From: Candidatus Hydrogenedentota bacterium
GTDB taxonomy: Bacteria > Hydrogenedentota > Hydrogenedentia > Hydrogenedentales > CAITNO01
Length of the DNA: 33,725 nucleotides
Assembly: GCA_012730045.1 (NCBI GenBank)
Contig: JAAYBR010000013.1
Span: forward strand, 1 to 33,725
Reading direction: 5' to 3'
Shown: positions 9,687 to 20,463 of the stretch, piece by piece
Position numbering within the stretch: position 1 is the stretch's first letter
How the letters are laid out: every line of letters starts with the position of its first letter
The notes under the pieces: model-generated
Told to the model about the DNA's origin: nothing
Databases searched by the model: none
The model's input: the letters and a program-made list of their open reading frames with translations, nothing else
Position numbers and translations under genes: made by a program

Positions 9687-10412
9687 TTACTTGCCGATCA
9701 CCAGACGGTCCGCGAGGAACGAGGGCAGCCGCGCCTCCAGAATGCGCTTCGCCGCCTCCACCACAGGGTACACGACCCGCTCCAGCTTGAAGGTCTTCTT
9801 CTCCGTGTCCAGAACGCCGAAAGAGGCCCGCGGGTCGTCATCCCGCGGCTGGCCCACCGACCCCGGGTTGATGAACAGCGCCTCCTCCGTGTCCACGGGG
9901 AACGCGTTGCCTTCGTTCACCGCGTAGGTGCCGCGCGGGCAGAGGATCACCGGCGTGTGCGTGTGGCCGATGAAGCAGAGCCGGCAGTTCTGCTCGTCCA
10001 GGAACGGCAGATGGGGGATCACGTCCTCCCAGGTGAAGATGTAGGTGTTGTGGTTCTTCGGCGCGCCGTGCACCGCCACGAAATCCCCGAAATTCAGCGC
10101 GTCCGGAAGGTTCTGCAGCCACTCCACCGCGTCGTCGCTGAGCTGGTCCCGCGTCCAGATGGCCGCCGCCAGCGCCACGGGGTTGAAGCCCCACGGCTCC
10201 TCCAGCCCGCACGCCACCGCGTCGTGGTTCCCCAGAATCGCCAGAATGTTCCGCTCGGCGATCAGGTCAATGCACTCGTTCGGCGTGGCGTTGTACCCCA
10301 CCACGTCCCCGAGGCAGACCGTCCGGTCCACACCGATGTCGTCAATCCGCTTGAGAACCGCTTTCAGGGCGTCAATATTCGCGTGAATGTCGGAAATAAT
10401 CGCGTACCGCAA
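9687..10412 (-). CDS. Calcineurin-like metallophosphoesterase (YfcE/MJ0936-type)
   Basis: A 241-aa cytoplasmic binuclear-metal phosphoesterase. The motifs are in order: D8-x-H10 (ISDIH), GD at 35-36 (GDVVGY), GNHD (61-64), H115 in VHGAP and GHTH (149-152). This is the complete metallophosphoesterase set and suggests phosphodiesterase or phosphatase activity of unknown substrate. The only start that begins the protein at the conserved first strand (RYAIISDIH) is a TTG at 10412, with GGAG about eight bases upstream. The frame stays open for 80 more codons upstream, but that part is translated from promoter and repeat sequence. It probably leads a four-gene minus-strand unit with hisB, hisH and the Usp gene. 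Confidence 0.88.
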   Translation of the reverse strand: MRYAIISDIHANIDALKAVLKRIDDIGVDRTVCLGDVVGYNATPNECIDLIAERNILAILGNHDAVACGLEEPWGFNPVALAAAIWTRDQLSDDAVEWLQNLPDALNFGDFVAVHGAPKNHNTYIFTWEDVIPHLPFLDEQNCRLCFIGHTHTPVILCPRGTYAVNEGNAFPVDTEEALFINPGSVGQPRDDDPRASFGVLDTEKKTFKLERVVYPVVEAAKRILEARLPSFLADRLVIGK

Positions 10413-10545
10413 TGCCTGTCTCCGCGCCGGCGTCCCGCCGGGGCGCCCGTTCCCTCGCCCAACCCGCACTGCGGCAACAGTCCCGTCCCTCGGGAGGCCG
10501 CGCCGCCGTCCGCTCCAATACCGGTCACTCCTTGGTCCTGAACCC

Positions 10546-10576
10546 ATGATACCAGCATTTCCCGCGCTGTTTCCAA
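10546..10576 (-). promoter_or_regulatory. Candidate extended -10 promoter for the metallophosphoesterase/his unit
   Basis: On the minus strand, TTGGAA (10571-10576) is followed after 19 bp by TATCAT (10546-10551), preceded by TGG, which gives an extended -10. The spacer is two bases long of optimum. It leaves a leader of roughly 130 nt before the TTG start. Confidence 0.35.
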
Positions 10577-10628
10577 TGCCGGGAATACGCGCACCCAACC
10601 CCATCGTGGGGAATGCCTGTCCCGCCCT

Positions 10629-10705
10629 GTCCATGATGTCCATCAAGTCCATATCGTCCGTTCTTCATTTAAATGGACACCATGGACGGGATGGACATCA
10701 TGGAC
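10629..10705. repeat. Period-9 inverted repeat, copy A (GTCC x4 / GGAC x4)
   Basis: GTCC occurs at 10629, 10638, 10647 and 10656, and GGAC at 10675, 10684, 10693 and 10702, each spaced exactly nine bases. The two 34-nt arms (10629-10662 and 10672-10705) are complementary at 28 of 34 positions around a 9-nt loop, so a long hairpin or cruciform is possible. Confidence 0.85.
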
Positions 10706-10733
10706 GGGCAACGGAGGGAGAGGCATTCTGGCA

Positions 10734-10762
10734 TTGAACAGCCTGAATACAAGTGCTATGCT
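10734..10762 (+). promoter_or_regulatory. Sigma-70 promoter for the small membrane protein
   Basis: TTGAAC (10734-10739), a 17-bp spacer and TATGCT (10757-10762) predict transcription starting near 10769, about 26 nt before the ATG. It lies 28 bp downstream of repeat copy A. Confidence 0.6.
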
Positions 10763-10794
10763 GTGGGCTAGGGTTCAGCCGAAAGGGAGAAGGA

Positions 10795-11187
10795 ATGGCC
10801 GTTCACATGGTGAGAACCTTGTCGGCATGGGCGGGGTTCCATCTGGTGTCCGGGGTGTTCTTCGGTGTCCTGTTTGCCGGAGTTGCCTTTGCCCTGGCGG
10901 GGGAGGATTCGTCCTTTGGTGCCGGATTCGGGATTGCTGTCGGGCCGATGGCCGCCCTGTCCTTCGGCGTGCTGTCCTATTACCCCCTGCGGAAAGTTCT
11001 CACGCCGCGGACCTGCCTCGGGCTGCCGTTCTTTACCTTTCTGGGCGGGGTGGCCGGATTGCTGACCGCGCTTCCCTTCCTCGGGGTGGAGGGCGGGGCA
11101 GGGTTCAGCGCGGCCGGGTGCATGCTCGGGTATTGGGCGGGCGTGGCCGTGCTGGGACTTGAACTGCCACGCCGCCCGAGGGAGTAA
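10795..11187 (+). CDS. Small four-helix membrane protein of unknown function
   Basis: A 130-aa protein with four predicted membrane segments at about residues 13-36, 41-62, 74-96 and 101-123, separated by short polar turns, and a basic C-terminus (RRPRE). I recognise no family. The ATG at 10795 has a strong GGGAGAAGG ribosome site five to six bases upstream and a good promoter; an in-frame ATG at 10753 lies upstream of the predicted transcription start and is rejected. It is followed 109 bp later by the TetR gene, which has its own promoter, so the two need not be related. Confidence 0.75.
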   Translation: MAVHMVRTLSAWAGFHLVSGVFFGVLFAGVAFALAGEDSSFGAGFGIAVGPMAALSFGVLSYYPLRKVLTPRTCLGLPFFTFLGGVAGLLTALPFLGVEGGAGFSAAGCMLGYWAGVAVLGLELPRRPRE

Positions 11188-20254: not shown

Positions 20255-20376
20255 CAACCGCCGTAATCGTACCACACGCCCCCGGAACCGCGCAACTTCA
20301 CAGACCCGCGCGGAAGGCGCGGGAAGCCCCCGCATTCGCCGGGCGGACCGGCCCGCCGCGCTTCCGCGCCGCACGG

Positions 20377-20463
20377 TGGACGACATGGACGGCATGGACC
20401 CCATGGACGGAAGCGCAGGTTTGTTCCCCTGTCCATCCCGTCCATTCTGTCCATAGAGTCCAT
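20377..20463. repeat. Period-9 inverted repeat, copy B (GGAC x4 / GTCC x4)
   Basis: GGAC occurs at 20378, 20387, 20396 and 20405, and GTCC at 20431, 20440, 20449 and 20458, all spaced nine bases. The arms pair as four short helices of about six bases separated by mostly unpaired triplets around a 19-nt loop. The orientation is the reverse of copy A. It lies between tRNA-Val (-) and the rhamnosidase gene (+). Confidence 0.85.

Follow-up and report, generated by a model that had tools for sequence, protein, structure and literature searches.

Period-9 inverted hairpin arrays and an associated four-helix-bundle protein family in Hydrogenedentota and other bacteria

Introduction

What is a strictly regular inverted repeat doing between two genes, and is it alone in its genome? 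The question is raised by positions 10629-10705 of a 33,725-nt stretch of DNA from a Candidatus Hydrogenedentota bacterium (assembly GCA_012730045.1, contig JAAYBR010000013.1; hereafter the window), where four GTCC units are followed by four GGAC units. A first-pass annotation, made from the letters of the window, suggested a mobile hairpin element or a protein-binding site. We give a probability of roughly 0.6 to the reading that the repeat belongs to a family of hairpin elements shared between phyla, which a cognate four-helix-bundle protein recognises and probably also spreads or maintains. No earlier description of the arrays or of the protein family's role was found in open-access PubMed Central (PMC) full text; one may exist elsewhere.

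The array in the window and throughout its genome

The GTCC units start at 10629, 10638, 10647 and 10656 and the GGAC units at 10675, 10684, 10693 and 10702, and the nine-base step claimed for all eight units is exact in both arms. The copy consists of four GTCCAYNNN units, a short loop and four RTGGACNNN units. An RTGGAC-type unit is thus 9 nt long, a conserved hexamer (RTGGAC) plus three free bases (NNN).

10626..10708, no strand: whole hairpin; the predicted RNA fold of 10612-10722 has -63.1 kcal/mol, z -7.3
10629..10661, minus strand: left arm, units GTCCATGAT GTCCATCAA GTCCATATC GTCCGT; RTGGAC units on the minus strand (direct reading and pattern matches)
10662..10672, no strand: loop, mostly unpaired in the predicted hairpin
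10673..10705, plus strand: right arm, units ATGGACACC ATGGACGGG ATGGACATC ATGGAC (direct reading and pattern matches)

A repeat finder placed the arms at 10626-10662 and 10672-10708 (37 nt, 81% complementary, loop of 9 nt), close to the 28 of 34 complementary positions counted earlier. A scan of the window with Rfam 15 returned tRNAs only, and no RNA family exceeded its gathering score at the arrays. The suggestion that the repeat lies just upstream of a promoter is weak, the sole promoter-like match on the plus strand overlapping the array itself.

Statistics for the window's genome (G000) rest on whole-genome pattern counts and on about 1.7 Mb of sequence, 38% of the genome and partly chosen around arrays. 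Reversed patterns served as the control for the genome and shuffles as the control for the window. Ten triple-RTGGAC matches were found in the window, with 0 expected after shuffling. In the genome, GGACN5GGACN5GGAC occurs 197 + 192 times versus 24/27 for the reversed pattern, and the four-unit RTGGAC array 96 + 104 times (200 in total) versus 0/0, confirming that the repeat is too regular for chance. Arrays of period 9 numbered 94 in the 1.7 Mb, compared with 6-14 for periods 7, 8 and 10-12. The first-pass annotation had named a random distribution, including positions inside genes, with variable spacing as the outcome that would speak against it; what we found instead was an exact period of 9 and, among arms with at least four units, 58 of 67 outside called genes, despite a coding fraction of 85% of the DNA.

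Divergent, convergent and tandem gaps are all occupied. Adjacent arms were inverted in 25 cases and direct in none, a typical pair having four units per arm and 10-45 nt in between. When the NNN triplets were paired from arm to arm, the base match was 0.45 versus 0.40 after shuffling. Covariation of the stem, proposed earlier as a check for structural RNA, is therefore not supported, and it is the RTGGAC sequence, not just the stem, that is conserved. Triplets of adjacent units are nearly unrelated (identity 0.11 versus 0.067 at random). Two copies of about 150 bp, 99% alike and located at unrelated sites, show a recent duplication. Loop lengths peak at about 21 nt; this peak comes from non-independent copies in one metagenome-assembled genome (MAG), and a helical periodicity of 10-11 bp was not relied on.

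Distribution across phyla

MAGs from at least 10 phyla contain the paired RTGGAC array. Among the matches listed, the MAG labels include Chlamydiae, Lentisphaerae, Desulfomicrobium, Chlorobiales, Hydrogenedentota, Sumerlaeota, Geobacter, Thiosymbion, Cloacimonadota, Planctomycetes, Verrucomicrobia and Anaerolineae; the pair is also present in an isolate, Oligosphaera ethanolica DSM 24202. Within the family and order of the window organism the number of arrays per genome ranges from 0 to 372, and some genomes (L303, G036) contain long homogeneous arrays. Carriage by phages or plasmids was discarded as an explanation, since the finds were limited to one viral contig and a single Prevotella record.

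The ends of contigs C50, C53, C72 and C85 of the window's genome are one common 126-bp array. The family thus interrupts assembly from short reads, and MAGs are likely to understate its copy number.

A four-helix-bundle protein gene is linked to the arrays

In an all-against-all protein comparison, one protein family recurred: of 119 array stretches, 16, drawn from many phyla, encode a member directly at the array or close to it. Its members combine a four-helix bundle with a 'four helix bundle suffix' domain (NCBIfam TIGR04258; TIGR02436 also matched). Five array-linked proteins scored 56-79 bits with TIGR04258 (curated cut-off 40) and 27-33 bits with TIGR02436 (cut-off 24), and the partner protein scores just below the cut-off of Pfam PF05635 (23S_rRNA_IVP). 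A search of the Protein Data Bank (PDB) with the family sequence profile gave no meaningful match. In a structure search with an AlphaFold model (mean predicted confidence, pLDDT, 87.9), the best PDB matches were 2GSC and 2RLD of the S23 family (probability 1.00, template-modelling score by target 0.81/0.61, E 0.0095/0.18). Judged from this model, the protein has the S23 / 23S rRNA IVP (PF05635) fold and is Avd-like.

Period-9 arrays sit upstream of the partner genes, downstream of them or in frame inside them. Arrays of the last kind separate the four-helix core from the suffix and code for G-x-x and S-I-x repeats; here the nine-base period would also preserve the reading frame. Other genes near the partner gene are unrelated between loci. 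The window's genome contains four partner genes, of which the RTGGAC-type one is truncated by a contig end (C81:185). In order to measure the linkage, 30 genes were fetched by the family model alone, blind to arrays: 21 of 30 loci had period-9 arrays at a distance of at most 500 bp, compared with 0 of 30 Y1_Tnp control loci.

Two four-helix-bundle genes were seen within or next to genes of type I restriction-modification (hsdR, hsdS; L188:282-3545 and L245:588-1925). By eye, 9-base CCTAG units, degenerate and inverted in order, were also noticed 3' of a gene annotated as 'four helix bundle suffix' in Prevotella nigrescens (NZ_CP082843.1, L420:4600-4760), where the scan made no call.

The repeat unit follows the protein clade

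Paralogues of the partner gene differ in their unit, which may be RTGGAC, GTCGGAC (full repeat unit GTCGGACNN), ATAGGAC, GTGGGAC or GATCSGAC. When unit labels were placed on the protein tree, 12 changes were required versus 23.9 after shuffling, and none of 200 shuffles gave a value as low; unit and protein have co-evolved. RTGGAC genes form one clade (support 95/94) that covers eight phyla, and the GATCSGAC clade is supported at 100/99.

A prediction follows: wherever GTCGGAC or ATAGGAC arrays are dispersed through a genome, the gene is expected as well. The gene was present in 21 of 22 such genomes (ATAGGAC 10/10, GTCGGAC 11/12). In two genomes with a partner gene and no RTGGAC arrays (G022, G039), the arrays at that gene turned out to be of the GTCGGAC type, and the window's own genome contains dispersed GTCGGAC and GATCSGAC arrays alongside paralogues of both types. 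Across 68 genomes of the phylum, 38 have gene and array, 3 the gene only, 11 the array only and 16 neither (p = 4e-6).

Another period-9 type (TGGGANNTA / TTCCCAT; L074:8325-8470) is dispersed in the genome, and a matching paralogue is absent from the 1.7 Mb analysed.

Hexamers are conserved while triplets change rapidly

Twelve arrays of G000 were compared with their orthologues in a sister species (G001). Flanks differ by 12% and NNN triplets by 41-43%, while TGGAC differs by only 0.8% when G001 is the reference and by 3.4% when it is G000. The triplets are still 34% different when the best register is chosen for each arm. The A of TGGAC is not mutated, and whole units have been gained or lost. 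Plain drift combined with selection on the hexamer accounts for the conservation of the hexamer but leaves the fast change of the triplets unexplained. At the site of the window copy only a decayed left arm is left in the sister species, which indicates that single copies are dispensable.

Discussion

A hairpin that is dispersed between genes over many phyla, and whose unit matches that of a protein gene with like repeats, suggests a family of DNA elements, mobile or recognised by a protein, that has so far gone undescribed. The idea of a mobile hairpin or a protein-binding site thus holds as regards a strong, dispersed and intergenic hairpin, to which a cognate protein is now added; movement and binding are what we infer. 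Movement is suggested by the pair of 150-bp copies together with the patchy cross-phylum distribution. In the mechanism we propose, the S23/Avd-like four-helix bundle would bind the folded hairpin (RNA or single-stranded DNA, the presumed intermediate) and read the hexamer once every 9 nt. A gene with its arrays would be the autonomous form. Gene-less array pairs such as the window copy would be non-autonomous, spread and held in register in trans by the protein together with host enzymes, and might affect neighbouring genes. The logic would be that of repetitive extragenic palindromic (REP) sequences and their REP-associated tyrosine transposase (RAYT), but with a protein of the intervening sequence (IVS)/Avd type.

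Several observations weigh against this reading. The partner protein has no known catalytic domain, and something else must therefore do the chemistry. No clean empty insertion site was seen among the orthologous sites compared, and loops and flanks are unrelated in almost every array, so that recent copying of whole elements must be rare. In 11 genomes with arrays the gene was not found, whether because assemblies are fragmented, the gene has been lost or another partner exists. Y1_Tnp counts correlate with arrays too, probably through genome size, which may therefore contribute to the co-occurrence of gene and array. The RTGGAC clade is weakened by the inclusion in the tree of 14 genes picked via their RTGGAC arrays, though two genes not chosen in this way also fall in it.

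Other explanations were weighed against the same data. The arrays could be a host regulatory system, that is, fixed DNA or RNA sites by which the four-helix-bundle protein controls neighbouring genes, and not selfish at all. Hexamers kept at orthologous sites while flanks drift are what functional sites would show, and divergent gaps are over-represented (19 of 49 arms versus 140 of 662 gaps). However, arrays also lie in convergent gaps beside stop codons, the genes are embedded in arrays, cross from phylum to phylum and have several paralogues that differ in their unit, and the window copy has decayed in the sister species; we consider this explanation unlikely. Selection for structure, as in transcription terminators or RNA-stability hairpins, would agree with the strong predicted hairpins (z -7.3 and -4.1) and with the position of some arrays 7-44 nt after convergent stop codons. 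Many arrays occupy divergent gaps, however, triplet pairing is hardly above shuffled, and structure alone would leave RTGGAC unconserved. A terminator role was rejected because the contexts of the arrays do not fit, and we regard selection for structure as very improbable.

REP sequences and bacterial interspersed mosaic elements (BIMEs) are dispersed intergenic palindromes with a cognate gene, RAYT, embedded in such repeats and a repeat type that tracks the protein clade. The present arrays are likewise intergenic palindromes with an embedded cognate gene and a clade-specific repeat, but their loci lack a Y1 protein, their 9-nt unit is in tandem, and their partner is a four-helix bundle. That they are REP-like elements moved by a Y1 transposase would suit their dispersed, intergenic hairpins and the Y1_Tnp genes that are common in these genomes and correlate in number with arrays. 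Yet the 30 control loci and the Y1 loci of the window's own genome are free of arrays, and G055 and G025 have arrays but no Y1; this partner is largely refuted, and the explanation is scarcely credible. Equally remote is the view that these are ordinary minisatellites produced by replication slippage, with a hairpin formed by chance. It could explain the long homogeneous arrays and the gains and losses of whole units, but not why the triplets of adjacent units are nearly unrelated, why arms are invariably inverted, or why hexamers are conserved across phyla and matched to the protein clade.

Related by protein type are the IVSs of 23S rRNA genes with an S23 open reading frame (ORF; PF05635/TIGR02436; PMC4990558). 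They share with the arrays a selfish-looking hairpin, complementary ends that form a stem, a related four-helix-bundle ORF and a sporadic distribution through horizontal transfer. In Coxiella burnetii, short tandem heptamers whose number varies between strains lie upstream of the IVS ORF (PMC4990558). IVSs are, however, confined to 23S genes, while the arrays are intergenic, number tens to hundreds per genome and mostly lack an ORF; the array stems have period 9 with a conserved hexamer, and the partner protein has an extra suffix domain. Both copies in the window lie between protein or tRNA genes and none is inside a 23S rRNA gene, for which reason identity with a ribosomal IVS was rejected.

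Avd, the accessory protein of diversity-generating retroelements (DGRs), is a four-helix bundle resembling PF05635 (PMC10053308), and DGRs, like the arrays, mix hypervariable set positions with conserved ones. Identity with a DGR is unsupported: ten neighbouring genes examined included no reverse transcriptase (the genomes were not searched for them), no pair of template and variable repeats was recognised, and the A of TGGAC is unmutated. A more speculative possibility, which we think quite unlikely, is an array-writing system in which an Avd-like four-helix bundle and a polymerase add or rewrite 9-nt units with a fixed hexamer and a near-random triplet, arrays being made or renewed in place and not copied. 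This would jointly explain why hexamers are conserved above and triplets far below the flanks, why loops are unshared and why units are gained without copying of neighbours.

The association offers a lead on the function of TIGR04258, a family known only by its domain name, and by extension of the large S23/IVP four-helix-bundle group. Because the repeat 'code' varies by protein clade, recognition is directly testable. An odd pattern of hyper-conserved hexamers interleaved with hyper-variable triplets is exposed, and if the elements move, bacteria have in them a widespread mobile element for which no transposase is known.

The second window copy, flanking genes and related repeats

The window contains a second array pair at 20376-20463, in the reverse order with GGAC units first.

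20376..20408, plus strand: left arm, units GTGGACGAC ATGGACGGC ATGGACCCC ATGGAC; an orthologous array exists in G001
20431..20463, minus strand: right arm, units GTCCATCCC GTCCATTCT GTCCATAGA GTCCAT; hairpin z -4.1

The first copy is flanked by two coding regions, given for context.

9687..10412, minus strand: calcineurin-like phosphoesterase gene (Pfam PF12850; start from codon scoring)
10753..11187, plus strand: ORF without a Pfam match; start uncertain

The unit was also said to yield a Met-Asp-x reading frame that may cause spurious gene calls. This was right in one respect: the longest phosphoesterase ORF (9687-10652, minus strand) opens at an ATG that belongs to the array, whereas the start indicated by codon use and Pfam lies near 10412. 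Automatic gene callers may thus add 80 codons to this gene.

Period-7 arrays (TTCCGCG / GGGAAAC type) were seen near period-9 arrays in three genomes (L407:1638-1759; L408:398-430 and 700-731; L409:1554-1587). Together with the heptamers of the Coxiella IVS, they make a sister period-7 system possible.
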